A DNA stretch of 64,000 nucleotides from Microvirga roseola (lineage in GTDB: Bacteria; Pseudomonadota; Alphaproteobacteria; Rhizobiales; Beijerinckiaceae): contig NZ_JAJATX010000001.1 of assembly GCF_020866965.1 (NCBI RefSeq), forward strand, positions 1 to 64,000, given 5' to 3'. The position numbers and the translations under genes are program-made. Position 1 is the first letter of the stretch, and each line of letters starts with the position of its first letter. This document shows positions 22,363 through 35,537 of the stretch, piece by piece. The notes below the pieces were generated by a model, which saw only the letters and a program-made list of their open reading frames with translations, ran no database searches and was not told where the DNA came from.

Positions 22363-23235
22363 TCAGGGGTGCGGATTTGATAGGCAGGAAGGCTGGCGCG
22401 AAGGCAGGGAGAGGGCCTCGGCAGGGCTGCCGCTCGCCTCGGCACGGACATCGGAAAAGGTGTCGGTCAGGCGCAGGTCCCCCGGCGTGATCCGGGCGAT
22501 GGCCTCTGCGGGGATAGGCGTCAGGACCGTGACGGGGCCATCGTCCGTGCAGGCGGCCAGCAAGCCGAGACCGAGATCGTTTCCCTGATCGTCGGACAAT
22601 CCCAGAAGGAGGCCGGGCGGGCAGGGGGCATCCCGTTTCAGAATTGCCCGATGACGATCATCAAGGCTCACCACTGCAGCTCCCGCGAAGTAGTCCCGGA
22701 ATGCGTTGCGGCGGGCCGCGCGACGCTCGCCCTTGGTCTTGCGCCTGGCCTCCGGGGAGGGTGGCACGCGCAGCGCAGCGGTCCCCGCATGCCGGCGCAG
22801 CACGGCTTCAGTTTCGTCTCCAAGGGCAACCAGCAGGTCCGGCTGGAGCGCAGCGATCTTGTCCGCCTTCAGCTTCAACCCAGGACCTGCCAGAAGCCCG
22901 CTCGTGTTGACGATGACGAGATCGGCCTGCGCATCCTGTACGAGACGCCTTGCGCCTTCGATCAGTCGCTCCTCGCCGGCAACGGGATCGGTCGTGCCGG
23001 CGAAGGCGAGCCTCATGCCCTGCGAGTCGACCAGCGTGACGCAGGCAGGGGGCCCGACGGTCTTCTGGCCGAGATCGGTATCCAGCAGGGCGGCGCTGCG
23101 GCCGGAACGGATCGCGGTGGTGAAGAGAAAGCGGCAGAGCGCGCTCTTTCCCACGTCCACCGCCCCGATCACCATGACCCGGCGAACGCCGCTCTGCACG
23201 ATCCGGCCGGCCGCCTCGGCCCAATCGTCCGGCAC
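22363..23235 (-). CDS. Clp1/Grc3-like P-loop polynucleotide kinase
   Basis: About 290 residues if started at GTG 23235, 20 bp after the stop of the upstream esterase gene. The frame stays open further upstream, so the start is uncertain. Walker A is GAVDVGKS at about residues 24-31 and the Clp1/Grc3-type motif DTDLGQ is at about 52-57, followed by KTVGPPACVTL. In eukaryotes and archaea this fold phosphorylates RNA or DNA 5'-OH ends. The bacterial homologues are little studied, and function here is inferred from motifs only. Confidence 0.7.
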   Translation of the reverse strand: MPDDWAEAAGRIVQSGVRRVMVIGAVDVGKSALCRFLFTTAIRSGRSAALLDTDLGQKTVGPPACVTLVDSQGMRLAFAGTTDPVAGEERLIEGARRLVQDAQADLVIVNTSGLLAGPGLKLKADKIAALQPDLLVALGDETEAVLRRHAGTAALRVPPSPEARRKTKGERRAARRNAFRDYFAGAAVVSLDDRHRAILKRDAPCPPGLLLGLSDDQGNDLGLGLLAACTDDGPVTVLTPIPAEAIARITPGDLRLTDTFSDVRAEASGSPAEALSLPSRQPSCLSNPHP

Positions 23236-23254: not shown

Positions 23255-23953
23255 TCAGCCCAGGAACCGGGCCATGGCGCGCTCGACCATGGAGTCGGGG
23301 ACGATGTGTCCGTCATCGAATTCCAGGTACTCCACATCGTAGCCGGCATGTTCAAGCGCAGGAGCAAGGCGGCGGCTGCAGGGATTGATCGGCAGCACCT
23401 CGTCCCTGATGCCGTGGGAGATGAAGATTCTTGGCGAATCCTCCTGCTCCGTGGGCGCCATGAAGCCCGGCGAGAAGGCGAGGATATCGCTGAACAGCGC
23501 ACCGTTGACGATGCCGATGGAAAGCGCGTAGGACGCTCCATCGGAGAAGCCCGAGATCGCAATGCGCTTAGGGTCTATGAGAACGTTCTGGAAGACCTTG
23601 CCTAGGGCCCTGTCGATGAAATCCACATCCGGCCCGTAGCCGCCGCGGATGACATCCCAGGTCGAGGTGCGCGACTCCGGGGCGAGGATGACGACGCCGT
23701 GCCGCGCGGCCGTATCGGCAAGAAAGTCGATCATCTGCGAGGCGATGCCTCCAGCGCCGTGGAGGGCCAGGACCAGGGGCGTCGGCTTCGCGGCATCGAG
23801 CCCCTCCGGCACGAGGAAGGCCCCGTCGCGCCGGCCGTCGAGGTCAAGGACATGAAGGCCCGGCGTCGCGGCCGGATCCGGCACCGTCGTCTGGGCGCGC
23901 GCTCGAAGAATTCCCGCCGTAGCGGCGGTCGGTTCCGTATCGGTGCGAGGCAT
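23255..23953 (-). CDS. Alpha/beta hydrolase, esterase/phospholipase-like
   Basis: A 232-residue hydrolase. The oxyanion strand is LVLALHGAGG, the nucleophile elbow GFSDGAS carries the catalytic Ser, and a late HGIRDEVLPI segment and DDGHIVP provide the Asp and His. It resembles small carboxylesterases and PHB-depolymerase-like proteins. No signal peptide is visible, so it is likely cytosolic. It precedes the Clp1-like gene by 20 bp and the two are probably cotranscribed. Confidence 0.82.
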   Translation of the reverse strand: MPRTDTEPTAATAGILRARAQTTVPDPAATPGLHVLDLDGRRDGAFLVPEGLDAAKPTPLVLALHGAGGIASQMIDFLADTAARHGVVILAPESRTSTWDVIRGGYGPDVDFIDRALGKVFQNVLIDPKRIAISGFSDGASYALSIGIVNGALFSDILAFSPGFMAPTEQEDSPRIFISHGIRDEVLPINPCSRRLAPALEHAGYDVEYLEFDDGHIVPDSMVERAMARFLG

Positions 23954-24014: not shown

Positions 24015-24590
24015 TCAAGGGCCGGGAAGATTCTCGGGGCTGTCCTCGACGCGAATGTTGTTCTGGACGTGCGCGACGCCCGATACGGCCTCTGCGAGAT
24101 CCTCGGCGCGAAAGCGCAGGCCGCGGCTGGCGACGGTGCCGGAGAGGGTGACCTCGCCGCCCTTCACGGCCACTTCGATATTGGAAGCGTCGATCATCGG
24201 ATCGTGCGTGAGCCACTCGCACACATCCTCGTGGATGCGTTCGTCGGAACGCTTGTAACCCTTCGGGCCGCGGCCCCGGTGCGGCCCTGAGATCGGCCGC
24301 GGAATGCGCGTCTGCTCCGCCCCACGATCCCGGTCGCTGCGGTCCCGGTCGCCGAGGCCGCCATAACCGGAACGGTATTCGCTGTAACGCGGCGAAAAGC
24401 CGGCATCGTCGGGCGGACCGCCATGACCGTCATCGACGACGCCTCCGGTGAACTCGCCCGTATCGTCGCCGTAGCCGCCAGGATATTCCACGCCCCGGCC
24501 GCGGAAGCCGACCGCGCCGCCGCTGGGCACATCACCGTAGCCGTTGTCGTCGTTGTAAGGGTTTCTATTCCTTCGGCGGATGTCTACCAT
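24015..24590 (-). CDS. BON domain protein with Gly/Asp/Arg-rich N-terminus
   Basis: A 191-residue protein. Residues 1-110 are low complexity, rich in Gly, Asp, Arg and Tyr, and probably disordered. A BON domain follows at about 118-183 (ASNIEVAVKGGEVTLSGTV and a GVAHVQNNIRV ending). BON domains bind phospholipid or other envelope partners, but this one has no signal peptide. Start chosen at the Met of MVDIRRRNRNPY. An EcfG-like promoter lies about 27 bp upstream. Confidence 0.82.
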   Translation of the reverse strand: MVDIRRRNRNPYNDDNGYGDVPSGGAVGFRGRGVEYPGGYGDDTGEFTGGVVDDGHGGPPDDAGFSPRYSEYRSGYGGLGDRDRSDRDRGAEQTRIPRPISGPHRGRGPKGYKRSDERIHEDVCEWLTHDPMIDASNIEVAVKGGEVTLSGTVASRGLRFRAEDLAEAVSGVAHVQNNIRVEDSPENLPGP

Positions 24591-24616
24591 CGCTCTGCTC
24601 CTGTGATTGCAGGGGC

Positions 24617-24641
24617 AACAAACCCGTTTCCCTGTGGTTCC
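24617..24641 (-). promoter_or_regulatory. EcfG-like promoter before the BON gene
   Basis: On the minus strand GGAAC-N16-TGTT differs at one base from the general-stress sigma consensus GGAAC-N16/17-CGTT. It is about 27 bp from the BON start codon. Confidence 0.5.
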
Positions 24642-24672
24642 CACGGATCACCCGCAGCAGCACCCAGAGGCC

Positions 24673-24939
24673 ATGAAGCCAGCGCAGCGACTGAAGCTTT
24701 TCGAGGATGTCTTCGCCCGCGACGGCGGGCGCTGCGTCTATTGCGGCGTCGCCACGCATCGCCTCGCGAAAGGCCAGAGCCGCTCGCCGACGCTTGCCAC
24801 CCTCGACCATGTGGTGCCGCGCTCGCTCGGCGGGCCGCTCAGCCGGGAGAACCTCGTCCTGGCCTGCCAAGCCTGCAACAACGAGCGCGGCGTCATGGAT
24901 GCGGACGCGTTCCGGGCCCTGAAGGCCGGCAGCCGTTGA
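24673..24939 (+). CDS. HNH endonuclease domain protein
   Basis: An 88-residue protein from the Met of MKPAQRLKLFEDVF; a 22-codon longer frame exists but begins in poor context. The HNH motif is complete: CVYCG with two zinc-binding Cys, LDHVVPRSLGG with the catalytic His, SRENLVLACQACNNERG with Asn and the second Cys pair. Stand-alone HNH proteins of this size are common and mostly uncharacterised. No restriction or phage genes are adjacent. Confidence 0.85.
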   Translation: MKPAQRLKLFEDVFARDGGRCVYCGVATHRLAKGQSRSPTLATLDHVVPRSLGGPLSRENLVLACQACNNERGVMDADAFRALKAGSR

Positions 24940-27384: not shown

Positions 27385-29874
<2,490 letters not shown>

Positions 29875-30013
29875 TCAGTTATTTAGTGACGAACGGTTGA
29901 AATTTCACCCCCGCGCGTATACGCGCGCGAGGAAAAGCGCGGAAAATCCACGAAAAAGTGCCGATTCAGCGGCTTCTGGGAGCGGTTCTTTGCCTCAGCC
30001 CCGGAATGGGCGC

Positions 30014-30628
30014 TCAACGCGCCGCCACGGCAGCCGCAGCGCCGGCCAGCATGGCCCCCGTCGTGCGGTTGAGAATGCGGATGGCTCTCGGGGTCGTGAA
30101 GAGCTGCCGCGCCCGGGCGGCGAGCACGATATAACCGCCGAAGACCACGCCCAGGACGCCCAGCGTCGCCGCCACGAGTTCCGCATAGCCCAGCGCCGTG
30201 ATGCGGGTGAGGTCGAGAATCGTGGGCAGGAGGGCGAGGTAGAACACGATGGTCTTCGGATTGCCCAGGGTGAGGGCAAGTCCGCCGAGCAGAAGCTTGG
30301 CAGGATGCTCCGCGGCGGAATTGGCCTTCACGTCCTTGGCGAGCGCCGGGGCGGTCCAGATCTTGTAGGCGATGTAGAGCAGGTACATCGCGCCGGCATA
30401 TTTGATGACCAGGAAGACCCCGTGGAAGGTCTGCGCCAGAGCCGCGAGTCCCAGGATGGCGCAGGTCAGCCAGACCACGTCGCCCAGAGCGACCCCAATG
30501 CTGAACGCCACCGCGCCCTTGGGACCACGCCCCAGCACCCGCGCCACGATGGCGGCGATCCCCGGCCCCGGCGAGGCCGCGGCAATGAAGAGGGCGGAGG
30601 CGAAGAGCAGAAGGCCTGCGAGATCCAT
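30014..30628 (-). CDS. LysE/RhtB family amino-acid exporter
   Basis: A 204-residue inner-membrane protein with about six helices and the family start SPGPGIAAIVARVLGRGPKGA. The GNPKTIVFYLALLP segment is also typical. These proteins export basic or neutral amino acids or homoserine lactones; the substrate is unknown. It follows the CPBP gene by 3 bp and may share the recF transcript. Confidence 0.9.
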   Translation of the reverse strand: MDLAGLLLFASALFIAAASPGPGIAAIVARVLGRGPKGAVAFSIGVALGDVVWLTCAILGLAALAQTFHGVFLVIKYAGAMYLLYIAYKIWTAPALAKDVKANSAAEHPAKLLLGGLALTLGNPKTIVFYLALLPTILDLTRITALGYAELVAATLGVLGVVFGGYIVLAARARQLFTTPRAIRILNRTTGAMLAGAAAAVAAR

Positions 30629-30631
30629 GGT

Positions 30632-31417
30632 TCAAAGTCCCAGGGCGGCGAGAAGCGGCGTTGCGATCCAGAATACAACGTGAGAGGCCCCGTGGGCCAG
30701 CATGGCGTGCTCCAGGCTGCGCGAGGCGTAAAGCCAGCCGAAGAGAAGCCCCAGAACGCCGTTCAGCGCAAGCGTCCTGACGAGAAGGACATGGTTGCCT
30801 TCCTGCATCATGGGGGCGGCCGCCCCGAGATGGCCCGCCGCAAAGGCGAAGGCGGCCAGCGCGATGGCGATCCAGGTGAGGACCGGGCGTCCGCGCCTGC
30901 CGGTCAGGCAAAGGCCCAGCCAGAGCAGGAGGGTCATGAGCCCGAACCGCATCATCAGCTCCTCCGTGATGCCGCCATAGAGAAGGCCGGGCAGGCGGCC
31001 GGAGAGCGTGACGTCGTCCAGGCGGGGCACCGGTGCGAAAGCCCCCGGAAAGGCTTGGCGCAGCATCAGATCGGCGAGAGCGACGACGGAGGCAAAGACA
31101 ATCGCCAGCGCCAGGGCCGCTCCCCAGCCGGCGGCTGCCGACTCTATCGCCTCGCCGCGCAGGCGGCGCAGGATCAGGGAGGTAAGGCCCGCCTTCTCGG
31201 CCAGGGCGACGCCAACAGCGACCGCGCCCAGCATCAGGAGGGTCGGCTGGACGAGCAGGAGGAGGGCAAGAGCCGCTACCGGGAGTTCCGGCGCACCGGG
31301 CAACAGGCGGACCTGCTCGGCGGCGGCGCCCGTCAGCGGCACGAGCGAGAGAATGCCCAGGAACCCCAAGCCGCTCAAAGCGAGGAAGGGTTTCAGGAAG
31401 CGTGCGGCAAAGGTCAT
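30632..31417 (-). CDS. CPBP family intramembrane metalloprotease
   Basis: A 261-residue polytopic protein. Motif 1 EExxxR is present as GITEELMMRFGL, motif 2 is FAAGHLGA, and a late HxxxH-type HGASHVVFW supplies further catalytic residues. The ABI/CPBP family includes Rce1-like intramembrane glutamic proteases. Its ATG overlaps the recF stop (ATGA), indicating translational coupling with recF. Confidence 0.85.
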   Translation of the reverse strand: MTFAARFLKPFLALSGLGFLGILSLVPLTGAAAEQVRLLPGAPELPVAALALLLLVQPTLLMLGAVAVGVALAEKAGLTSLILRRLRGEAIESAAAGWGAALALAIVFASVVALADLMLRQAFPGAFAPVPRLDDVTLSGRLPGLLYGGITEELMMRFGLMTLLLWLGLCLTGRRGRPVLTWIAIALAAFAFAAGHLGAAAPMMQEGNHVLLVRTLALNGVLGLLFGWLYASRSLEHAMLAHGASHVVFWIATPLLAALGL

Positions 31418-32568
31418 GTCTGGCCCAGAGGCGCGATTCGTCCGGGCTGGACCATGAGCAGGTCGGCCCGTCCTTCGAGCTCCGCAAACAGGCTCGGATC
31501 GGCTCCCGTCATCCAGACCTGTCCCCCCAGGGATTCGAGCGCCGCATAGAGGCCCGCCCGGCGGCGGGGGTCGAGATGGGCGGCGACCTCGTCGAGCAGC
31601 ACGAAAGGGGCGATGCCGCTCATGCTGGCCACCAGCCGCGCATGGGCCAGCACAAGGCCGATGAGCAGGGCCTTCTGCTCGCCGGTGGAGGCGGTGCCGG
31701 CCGGGATGTCCTTGGGACCGTGGCGCACGAGAAGATCGGAGGCCTGGGGGCCAACGAGGGTGCGTCCGGCCGCTCGGTCGCGGGCGCGGGAATCGCGCAG
31801 AATCGCCCGGTAGCGGTCCTCGGCGTCGACCGCGGGGAGAGTGGCCACCAGGGCGTCGATTTCGCCCTCCAGGCCCATCGTGGCGAAGGGAAAGGGCGAA
31901 TCCTCCTTGCGGGTCTCCAGGATCAGGGCGGCCAAGCGCTCCACGGTCTCGCGCCGCGCGGCGACGACCGCGATGGCGAGTTCGGCCACCTCGCGCTCCA
32001 GCGCATCGAGCCAGAGGCGGTCGTCGGGATTGTCCTCCAGCACCCGGTTGCGCGAGCGCAGGGCCCGCTCGAGCGCATTCACCCGTGCGCCATGCTCCGC
32101 ATCCACCGCCAGCACCAGCCGGTCGAGAAATCGGCGGCGGTCGCCTGCGGGACCGCGGAAGAGCGCGTCGAGATCGGGTGTGAGCCAGACGACCCGCAGG
32201 TGCTCGGCAAAGGCCGTCGGGGAGGAGGCGGGCATGCCGTCGATGCGGCAGATGCGGGAAGCGCGCTCGCCGTTCTGCTCGAGTCCCGTACCGAGCCGGT
32301 GCTCGCCATAGGGTGTGTCGAGGGTGGCGGAAACGGCGAAGGCGCCGGCGCCGCTCTGCCGGGCCATCTCGGCGAGCTCGGCGCGCCTCAGGCCCCGTCC
32401 CGGCATGAAGAGGGAGATCGCCTCCAGCACGTTCGTCTTGCCCGCCCCGTTCTCGCCCACCAGCGCCACGAGCTGGCGCGACACGGAAAGATCCAGGCTC
32501 GCATAAGTGCGGAAATCCTGGAGGATCAGGCGCGTGATTCGGGAGGCGGAGAGGGGGGCGGAGGACAT
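31414..32568 (-). CDS. recF: DNA replication and repair protein RecF
   Basis: A 384-residue SMC-like ATPase. Walker A is GENGAGKTN near residues 37-45, the signature STGEQKALLIGLVLAHA and Walker B FVLLDEVAAHLD. RecF helps load RecA at gaps with RecO and RecR. It lies in the conserved dnaA-dnaN-recF order, 194 bp after dnaN. Confidence 0.96.
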   Translation of the reverse strand: MSSAPLSASRITRLILQDFRTYASLDLSVSRQLVALVGENGAGKTNVLEAISLFMPGRGLRRAELAEMARQSGAGAFAVSATLDTPYGEHRLGTGLEQNGERASRICRIDGMPASSPTAFAEHLRVVWLTPDLDALFRGPAGDRRRFLDRLVLAVDAEHGARVNALERALRSRNRVLEDNPDDRLWLDALEREVAELAIAVVAARRETVERLAALILETRKEDSPFPFATMGLEGEIDALVATLPAVDAEDRYRAILRDSRARDRAAGRTLVGPQASDLLVRHGPKDIPAGTASTGEQKALLIGLVLAHARLVASMSGIAPFVLLDEVAAHLDPRRRAGLYAALESLGGQVWMTGADPSLFAELEGRADLLMVQPGRIAPLGQT

Positions 32569-32762
32569 GCGCCCCTTCTTTCAGAAGCGGACGTGAAAGA
32601 TCAAGCGTCGGCAGGGCCGAGCCGTTGTTTCGGAGGGCTGTGCCGCAGCGACCCCTCAAACGAGATCACCGGCGCAAGGCCGGTGATGCTGTTGAACCAG
32701 TTTTTGAGAAGCGATCCCGGAATCTGCGCTGCGCTTAGTCCGGGACGACGACCTTCAGGTGC
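32569..32762. repeat. dnaN-recF gap with two hairpin repeats
   Basis: Two palindromes: ATCACCGGC-GCAAG-GCCGGTGAT (32665-32687) and TCCCGGA...TCCGGGA (32715-32745). The second resembles the TCCCGG/CCGGGA intergenic repeats common in Hyphomicrobiales. They may modulate recF expression relative to dnaN. No gene seen. Confidence 0.5.
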
Positions 32763-33881
32763 CTACACCCGCATCGGCATCAGGACGTAGAGCGCGGCTG
32801 CGCCCTCGCGGTCCTGGACGACGGTGGGGGAGCCGGGGTCGGCGAGCTTGAACAGGGCGGTGTCGCCGTCGAGCTGGGCCGTGATGTCGAGGAGGTAGCG
32901 AGCGTTGAAGCCGATATCGAGCGGGGCCGCATCGAAATCGACCTCGATCTCCTCCGTCGCACTGCCCGAATCCGGGTTGTTCACGGTGAGTGTCAGGCGC
33001 CCGTCGGCGAGCGAGAGCTTCACCGCGCGGCCGCGCTCCGAGGAGATGGTGGAGACTCGGTCCACGGCCTTGGCGAAATCGGCGCGCTCGACCACGAGCA
33101 TCTTGTCGTTCCCGGCCGGGATGACCCGCTGGTAGTCGGGGAAGGTGCCGTCGATGAGCTTCGAGGTGAGCACGACGCCGTCGAAGGTCAGGCGCACTTT
33201 GGCGGACGAGAGCTCAATGGCCACGTTCTCCGAGCCGTCCTCCACGAGCTTGACGATCTCGGCCACCGCCTTACGCGGAATGATGACGCCGGGCATGCCC
33301 TCGGAGCCCGTGGGCGCCGGGATCTCCACGCGGGCGAGGCGGTGCCCGTCGGTGGCGACCGCGCGCATCACGACCGATCCGCCCGCATCGAGCGTGTGGA
33401 GATAGATGCCGTTGAGATAGTAGCGCGTCTCCTCGGTCGAGATCGCGAACTGCGTCTTCTCGATGAGGCGCTTGAGGTCGCTTGCCGGAAGCGTGAAGCG
33501 GTGCGGCAGGTCGCCTGCGGCGAGATCCGGAAAGTCGCTCTCGGGCAGCGCCTGGAGCATGAAGCGCGAGCGGCCGGAGCGGATCTGCATCTGTCCCGCA
33601 TCCGCCGTTATTTCGAGGGAGACCTGCGCCCCGTCCGGCAGTTTGCGGACGATGTCATAGATCATGTAGGCGGGCACCGTGGTGGAGCCGGCCTCCGTGA
33701 TGTCTGCGGGAATCGTTTCCGTCACCTCGATGTCGAGGTCGGTCGCCTTCAGGCGCAGGGTGCCCTCTTCCGCACGCAGCAGAACGTTGGACAGGATCGG
33801 GATGGTATTGCGGCGCTCGACGACGCGGTGCACATGCCCGAGCGCCTTCAGAAGAGCGGCGCGCTCAACAGTAACTCTCAT
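32763..33881 (-). CDS. dnaN: DNA polymerase III beta sliding clamp
   Basis: A 372-residue clamp starting MRVTVERAALLKALGHVHRV, with three repeated clamp domains of about 120 residues each and the usual C-terminus ALYVLMPMRV. It encircles DNA and tethers polymerase III. The start at 33881 is set by homology; the longer open frame upstream is not coding. The stop is TAG, showing that amber is a normal stop codon in an essential gene here. Confidence 0.97.
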   Translation of the reverse strand: MRVTVERAALLKALGHVHRVVERRNTIPILSNVLLRAEEGTLRLKATDLDIEVTETIPADITEAGSTTVPAYMIYDIVRKLPDGAQVSLEITADAGQMQIRSGRSRFMLQALPESDFPDLAAGDLPHRFTLPASDLKRLIEKTQFAISTEETRYYLNGIYLHTLDAGGSVVMRAVATDGHRLARVEIPAPTGSEGMPGVIIPRKAVAEIVKLVEDGSENVAIELSSAKVRLTFDGVVLTSKLIDGTFPDYQRVIPAGNDKMLVVERADFAKAVDRVSTISSERGRAVKLSLADGRLTLTVNNPDSGSATEEIEVDFDAAPLDIGFNARYLLDITAQLDGDTALFKLADPGSPTVVQDREGAAALYVLMPMRV

Positions 33882-33974
33882 AGTCCAACACCTATGTCGT
33901 TGGAATTCTTGGCTTCGCCCTCGGCCAGCGGGCCGGGGAAGCAGGGCAGCAAGATTGGCGGGTGTTGCGGCAGA

Positions 33975-33996
33975 AAGCAAGGCCGCGGCCTTGCTT
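33975..33996. promoter_or_regulatory. Perfect 22-bp palindrome between dnaA and dnaN
   Basis: An uninterrupted palindrome with half site AAGCAAGGCCG, 94 bp upstream of the dnaN start. It may be an operator, a processing hairpin or a weak attenuator. Confidence 0.45.
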
Positions 33997-34034
33997 CCTA
34001 ACAGCCTGCCAATTTCTCAGGCGGGAGGGGTATC

Positions 34035-35537
34035 CTACTCCTGCAGCATCCGCTTCAGGAGCTCGACCTCGTCGGACAGGGCGTTGTCCTCGCCCAGGGC
34101 CTTCTCGATCTTGCGCACCGCATGGAGCACGGTGGTGTGATCGCGCCCGCCGAAGCGCCGGCCGATTTCGGGCAGGGAACGCAGCGTCAGCACCTTGGAC
34201 AGGTACATGGCGATCTGGCGCGGGCGCACCACGGCGGCGGTGCGGCGCTCGGAGAGGATGTCCGAGCGGGAGACGTTGTAGCGCGAGGCCACCAGCTTCT
34301 GGATGTCCTCGATCTTGACGCGCTTGGGCTCGCGGTTGCGCACGAGGTCGCGGATCGCGGTCTCGGCGGTCTCGAGAGTAATGGGGGAGCCGGTGAGGGT
34401 CGCATGCGCCAGAAGCCGGTTCACCGCACCTTCGAGGTCGCGCCCGTTGGCCGTGATCGCACGAGCCACATAGGCGATCACGTTCGGTCCCACCTCGAAG
34501 GTCGGGTGAATGCTCTTCAGGGCCTCGACCCGGGTAGTGAGGATGGAGGCGCGCAGGGCCTCGTCGAGAGCCCCGACCTCGACCACGAGGCCGCCGGCGA
34601 GGCGCGAGCGCACGCGCTCGTCGAGGCTCTCCAGATCCGCCGGCGGACGGTCCGCGGCGATCACGATCTGGCGGCCCGCATCGATGAGGGCGTTCAGAGT
34701 ATGGCCGAATTCCTGCTGGATCTGCTTGCCCTGGATGAACTGCACGTCGTCGATGATGAGCAGGTCGATGCCGCGCAGGCGCTCCTTGAAGGCGAGCGAG
34801 GTCTGGGCCTTCAGCGAAGCCACGAAGCCGTACATGAAACGGTCGGCGGTGAGATAGATGACCCGGCGTCCCTGGGCGCGCACCGCATGGCCGATGGCGT
34901 GAAGGAGATGGGTCTTGCCGAGGCCCACCCCCGCATGGAGGTAGAGCGGGTTGTAGATGGCCTGGCCGTTCTGGGCATGGGCGACCCGGTCCGCCGCCGC
35001 ATGGGCCAGCGCATTGGATCGGCCGATGATGAAGCTGTCGAAGGTCAGACGCGAATCGAGCGGCGCGCCGCCGAGATCAGCGCTGTCGCCGCGCTCCTCC
35101 TGCGGGGCAGCGGGCGAGAATTTCACCTCACCCGGAATGGCCGGCCCGGCGGGGGCTGCGGCGATGCTGGGGCGGGGCGCTTCTGCGGCGCGGCGCGGCG
35201 CGGCGGCGGCATCGCGGCCGAGGGTGTTGCGCACGCCGATCACGACGCGCTCCACGTCGTTGGTCTCGGAGCGGTAGACTGTCAGAACCCGGTCGGCATA
35301 GTGGGACTCGATCCAGCTCTTCAGGAAGCGGGTCGGCACCGTCAGATAGGCGCAGCCGTCGACGACCGAATCCAGTTCCAGGCGTCCGAACCAGCTGGCG
35401 AAGATATCCTCACCCAGCTCGGCCCGGAGACGACGCTTCACCCGCGTCCAGATTTCCGATGCCGTTTGATCGCCCGGAATCTCCATGCCGCCCTCGCTGG
35501 ACGCGGCATAGGTCCGATTGTCCTCGCTGCGATACAT
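34035..35537 (-). CDS. dnaA: Chromosomal replication initiator DnaA
   Basis: A 500-residue AAA+ initiator. The start at the Met of [11 protein letters not shown] follows GGAGGGACATTG. Domain I is N-terminal ([21 protein letters not shown]), domain II is Ala/Pro-rich, domain III has Walker [11 protein letters not shown] and Walker [11 protein letters not shown], and domain IV carries the DnaA signature [13 protein letters not shown]. It unwinds the origin and binds DnaA boxes. A perfect DnaA box lies about 680 bp upstream at 36213. Confidence 0.97.

Follow-up and report, generated by a model that had tools for sequence, protein, structure and literature searches.

Among complete bacterial genomes, 0.9% encode Clp1 (Saito et al., 2019; PMC6777427). 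The Thermus scotoductus homolog (Ts-Clp1) is described in that paper as a kinase active on single-stranded RNA and devoid of the N- and C-terminal domains, and yeast Clp1 as having no kinase activity (PMC6777427). All four motif definitions used here (Walker A, Walker B, clasp and lid) come from the same source, which gives the Clp1 Walker B motif as [D/E]hhQ, the clasp as [T/S/L]xGW and the lid as RxxxxR, and presents the clasp as well conserved and important for RNA binding. In the accounts of PMC6777427 and PMC10598085, activity of bacterial Clp1 is documented for one species and no role is assigned in any bacterium. A Clp1-like gene combining a constant gene partner with an altered RNA-binding motif offers a concrete entry to that role, and such a gene lies in the DNA analyzed here, a 64,000-nucleotide stretch of the Microvirga roseola genome (contig NZ_JAJATX010000001.1, positions 1 to 64,000; hereafter, the window). 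Bacterial Clp1 and its fold were already known; what is new is the constancy of an esterase partner within the genus and the changed clasp. A sequence-only reading of the window had described the fold as known mainly from eukaryotes and archaea, which is a fair statement but leaves out the active bacterial Clp1 published in 2019 (PMC6777427).

The kinase gene (22363..23235, minus strand) encodes a 290 aa Clp1-like P-loop protein, with the coordinates including the stop codon. The open reading frame of 290 codons from a GTG start, and the motifs GAVDVGKS, DTDLGQ and GPPACVTL, are all present as the sequence-only reading had claimed. GTG at 23235 is a plausible but uncertain start codon, as several relatives start 5-8 codons farther upstream. 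CLP1_P is the sole Pfam family scoring above cut-off for this protein (104.1 bits, E 1.1e-29, cut-off 26.6), NCBIfam holds no fitting model for it, giving just two weak GTPase matches far under their cut-offs, and a phmmer search of the PDB with it ranks Clp1 first (8hmy_E, E 6.7e-10). With dN/dS values of 0.26-0.42 in six close pairs of Microvirga relatives, the gene is intact, conserved and under purifying selection. Downstream of the kinase lie a GntR regulator and a transporter, which we take to be of the oligopeptide type. Also on the minus strand, at 27385-35537, is a row of genes that are presumably gyrB, recF, dnaN and dnaA-like, and the locus therefore appears to sit near a region of replication-origin type. 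Searches of the window with Rfam at gathering score and for tRNA genes gave no hits.

A structure model of the kinase was built from three sequences and has a mean pLDDT of 62.3; it is confident for approximately residues 1-168 only, so that the fold comparison concerns the kinase domain and the C-terminal part falls outside it. Alignment of this model with VIA-align gave Z 19.6 against human Clp1 (8hmy_E; 164 residues, 2.1 Å), Z 18.6-18.8 against RNA-bound Caenorhabditis elegans Clp1 and Z up to 19.4 against Grc3, and the best 15 entries by Z (14.2-19.6) were all Clp1 or Grc3 structures. The next family was that of the SRP GTPases, with Z up to 11.6, a level shared by NOL9, a true family member (Z 11.5); HypB was absent among the fold matches listed. 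In a PDB search with a profile of 16 relatives, the five leading matches were likewise Clp1 and NOL9 structures (first E 2.8e-18), with Grc3 lower. Because members of the Clp1/Grc3 family lead both the structure and the profile comparisons, the original assignment of a Clp1/Grc3-like kinase fold was right, as the family profile also indicates.

The motifs were compared in an alignment of 16 proteins comprising the window protein, 12 others of the genus and further relatives. The Walker A element GAVDVGKS (23143..23166, minus strand; residues 24-31) conforms to GxxxxGK[S/T], and its G24, G29 and K30 are invariant in the 16 proteins; so are D54, G56 and Q57 of the Walker B-type element DLGQ (23065..23076, minus strand; residues 54-57), which conforms to [D/E]hhQ. 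The clasp position, which was located by aligning profiles with human and C. elegans Clp1 and with NOL9, reads TSGL (22894..22905, minus strand; residues 111-114) and departs from [T/S/L]xGW, with Leu114 standing where Clp1 and NOL9 have the Trp of TxGW. Across 18 loci, this residue is Leu in 17 and Phe in one (L003), with Trp in none; a further relative, L053, has Tyr. The lid region KTKGERRAARR (22708..22740, minus strand; residues 166-176), as aligned to the human Clp1 lid, reads K166xxxxR171, and the plain RxxxxR pattern occurs at R171xxxxR176; R171 is invariant and K166 and R175 nearly so in the 16 proteins. Two profiles put the C-terminal part at the same position of NOL9, very weakly (0.5 and 7.1 bits); by these alignments it is likely a reduced C-terminal domain. 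The sequence-only reading had named a fold closer to HypB/SIMIBI GTPases or a loss of catalytic residues as evidence against itself; neither is seen in the fold (among the matches listed), the P-loop or Walker B, but the Trp of the RNA-binding clasp is replaced by Leu. Because the clasp motif was absent when tested, we classify the window protein, on its residues, within the CLP1_P family as a Clp1-like variant, short of full membership of the RNA-kinase family. The alignment was made without two proteins of another genus, L047 (G045) and L048 (G003), in which Walker A reads GKA and, in L048, Arg also replaces the Walker B Gln; by their residues these are possibly inactive CLP1_P members. The two loci also have neighboring genes in common.

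The window kinase resembles Ts-Clp1 in being bacterial and short, with CLP1_P near the N-terminus and both Walker A and Walker B. The lid of Ts-Clp1 is likewise described as having an Arg to Lys change (PMC6777427). They differ at the clasp, which is TSGL here and well conserved according to that paper, a contrast drawn from the published motif description rather than from the Ts-Clp1 sequence; the window kinase also retains a conserved C-terminal segment and has a linked esterase gene. With the eukaryotic Clp1, NOL9 and Grc3 proteins it shares the P-loop fold (Z 19.6, 11.5 and 19.4, respectively), the order of motifs and the lid region, and it differs from them in leaving no room for the N-terminal domain, in lacking the clasp Trp and in its short C-terminal part.

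The partner gene (23255..23953, minus strand) is located 19 nt upstream of the kinase on the same strand and encodes a 232 aa alpha/beta hydrolase with the motifs HGAGG and GFSDG, both of them invariant or almost invariant across 11 aligned relatives. The protein scores above cut-off for Abhydrolase_2 (30.5 bits, cut-off 23) and shares alpha/beta hydrolase motifs with Abhydrolase_2 and short-chain PHA depolymerase-like esterases, but it does not reach the NCBIfam cut-offs set for named enzymes of this kind (best 56.1 bits versus 150). Its structure, predicted without an alignment, had a mean pLDDT of 34 and was unusable.

A survey of 48 Microvirga genomes (kinase at E 1e-8, esterase at E 1e-20) found the kinase in 15, including the host, and the esterase in 17; both genes were present in 15 genomes, the esterase alone in two and neither in 31. 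The pairing pointed out in the sequence-only reading is therefore strongly confirmed in Microvirga, with the esterase in 15/15 kinase genomes versus 2/33 others (Fisher p 1.2e-10 over the 48 genomes, ignoring their relatedness). Among the 42 genomes with a completeness of 90% or more and a contamination of 5% or less, 11 carry the kinase and 13 the esterase. In 13 of the 15 kinase genomes the two genes lie side by side in the same direction, with 13-96 nt between the esterase stop and the conserved kinase start region in the 12 loci measured. In the genomes G237 and G344 they lie on different contigs; the kinases of these two genomes form one branch (support 91/91), so that the separation may be a single event. 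Over 11 paired loci, kinase and esterase distances are correlated (r 0.78, Mantel p 0.0002), as expected of genes inherited together. We conclude that kinase and esterase form a two-gene unit in Microvirga. One genome, G250, keeps the esterase and its usual neighbors without the kinase (L054:5862-6955), leaving about 410 nt to the next gene, and has likely lost the kinase. A literature search lying mostly outside subscription journals returned no esterase-linked Clp1 among the matches listed. The locus L059 (G1130) holds one of two kinase-esterase pairs in its genome; its kinase copy matches up to query residue 226, and in-frame stops lie inside the longer match.

Two further genes adjoin the unit. 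A BON-domain protein (24015..24590, minus strand; BON 64 bits) follows the esterase on its upstream side, and around other kinase-esterase pairs (e.g., L034, L035 and L039) the BON match is absent or elsewhere. Beyond it lies an HNH endonuclease-like open reading frame (24607..24939, plus strand; HNH 41.3 bits), with weak PADLOC matches (best E 2.1e-4, to PtuB), whose proximity had been remarked upon in the sequence-only reading. We reject it as part of the system: it is on the opposite strand and beyond the BON gene, it occurs near the kinase in only 9 of the 15 kinase genomes, and it stays by the esterase in the kinase-less G250. In the remaining six kinase genomes it is absent from the fetched flanks, some of which are short contigs.

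In the host's family, at least 120 of 397 genomes matched CLP1_P at E 0.001 and at least 34 did so above cut-off, with up to eight candidates of each genome scored; the 17 genomes whose match reached E 1.3e-12 and covered 140 to 188 of the 188 positions were kept, and the rest were dropped, including 17 that exceeded the cut-off by no more than a short P-loop stretch plus neighbors. At E 1e-9, CLP1_P was found in at least 1 of 385 genomes of the class (the host), in at least 2 of 398 of the phylum (the host and G823) and in 2 of 43 of the order to which L003 belongs (the genome of L003 and G1153). In another genus, G020, kinase and esterase are divergent neighbors; the kinase occurs in one of the three genomes of that genus, so this arrangement is without a second witness. 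An esterase match at E 1e-10 was absent from five of the six CLP1_P genomes queried (G045, G003, G272, G823 and that of L003), which speaks against a wide link between the two genes. Searches for the kinase in plasmids (72,556 records, E 1e-5) and phages (50,697 records, E 1e-3) gave no match, none of the 26 stretches of viral contigs that matched by pattern was confirmed, and PADLOC gave no match to kinase or esterase at E 0.1; a mobile or defence origin of the kinase is thus rejected.

The RNA end repair entertained in the sequence-only reading found no support in the host. Searches of its genome at E 0.001 for two ligase families, RtcB (PF01139) and PF09414, returned no match to either, and the same RtcB search was positive in 9 of 14 control genomes; resealing in a heal-and-seal repair is therefore unsupported for this genome. 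Elsewhere in the genus the kinase may have some tie to RtcB, which is present in 12 of 15 kinase genomes versus 16 of 33 others (Fisher p 0.059) and in 14 of 17 esterase genomes versus 14 of 31 others (p 0.016), both over the 48 genomes and ignoring relatedness. In another genus of the family, the region L033:7391-14271 (G272) holds a Clp1-like gene together with genes for RtcB (548.6 bits), archease, NTPase_1 and Hsp20; the Clp1-like gene adjoins that for NTPase_1 and has RtcB and archease no more than about 5 kb away, in what looks like a bacterial RNA-repair cluster with Clp1. Its product is a CLP1_P protein with Leu at the clasp, like the window kinase, but it has a longer C-terminal part and, as given above, a genome free of esterase matches. 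In the tree it groups with L003 and L053 (95/92), apart from the branch of the window kinase. The L033 Clp1-like gene had no plasmid or phage match at E 1e-3.

Taken with the homology to Ts-Clp1, these observations lead us to propose, at a probability of roughly one half, that the window kinase is a short, variant Clp1-like 5'-hydroxyl kinase, probably acting on RNA ends, within a two-gene unit with the esterase. By analogy, the kinase would use ATP-Mg to phosphorylate a 5'-hydroxyl at the end of a nucleic acid, most likely RNA. The pairing suggests that the esterase would act in the same process, perhaps deacylating the same substrate or a product. We would guess that the 5'-phosphate marks RNA for decay or further processing rather than for resealing, which the absence of RtcB and PF09414 matches from the host makes the more likely of the two. 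The 5'-hydroxyl kinase reading is favored by the CLP1_P score, the Clp1 fold, the invariant P-loop residues, D54 and Q57, the activity of Ts-Clp1, the proximity of L033 to RtcB and the esterase in 15/15 kinase genomes. Against it are the clasp Leu, the lack of such a ligase match in the host, the weak tracking of RtcB, the altered motifs of L047 and L048, the NOL9 Z of 11.5 and a model confident for about residues 1-168 only. It also counts against this reading that we know of no role of an esterase in 5'-end phosphorylation.

The main rival, which we regard as doubtful, is a small-molecule kinase: the esterase would free a hydroxylated product and the kinase phosphorylate it, as two steps of a catabolic or detoxifying module. 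The strict linkage to the esterase in the genus and the divergent pair of G020 would suit such a module, as would the loss of the clasp Trp and a host genome with no RtcB or PF09414 match. Clp1-like genes also lie near what we take to be TRAP-type transporter genes at L036:6050-9767 and L003:1-4777, and the one at L003 is next to a CoA-transferase gene. The conserved lid region and GPP segment argue against a small-molecule substrate, however, and Leu occupies the clasp position of the RtcB-linked L033 as well, so that Leu alone does not exclude an RNA substrate. Moreover, 14 plasmid records, most commonly of Paraburkholderia, encode esterases 40-48% identical to the partner, and the plasmid collection gave no match to the kinase. 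A related conjecture, which we think rather unlikely, is that the esterase-linked Clp1 branch changed substrate after losing the clasp Trp, so that instead of RNA 5' ends it would phosphorylate what the esterase frees, be it a hydroxylated compound or an acylated nucleotide or RNA end. To our knowledge there is no earlier Clp1-fold kinase with a non-polynucleotide role; were the change of substrate real, this would be the first, and if the substrate is not RNA, it could no longer be assumed that all active CLP1_P proteins are polynucleotide kinases.

It is improbable that the window protein binds ATP without kinase activity and serves the esterase as scaffold or regulator, like yeast Clp1 in being inactive (PMC6777427). 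The changed clasp is compatible with such a function, the altered Walker motifs of L047 and L048 indicate that decay occurs in the family, and divergence is faster in the kinase than in the esterase (mean identity 54% versus 74% over 11 paired loci; dN/dS 0.26-0.42 versus 0.08-0.20 in six pairs), but a pure scaffold would need none of the P-loop Gly and Lys, Asp54 and Gln57 that are invariant in the 16 proteins. A SIMIBI GTPase (HypB, SRP or MinD type) mistaken for Clp1 is scarcely credible, since the SRP GTPases, although next in the fold ranking, trail the 15 leading Clp1 and Grc3 entries and CLP1_P is the sole Pfam family above cut-off.

Two further Clp1-like genes have distinctive contexts. 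The G823 gene (L049:166-2091, minus strand) encodes a 641 aa protein that joins CLP1_P to a metallo-beta-lactamase domain (Lactamase_B_2, 39.7 bits) and that is presumably RNase Z-like. At L045:8959-12879 (G344), the Clp1-like gene adjoins genes for an Hsp20-like protein and Lon protease, neighbors that suggest a stress setting.
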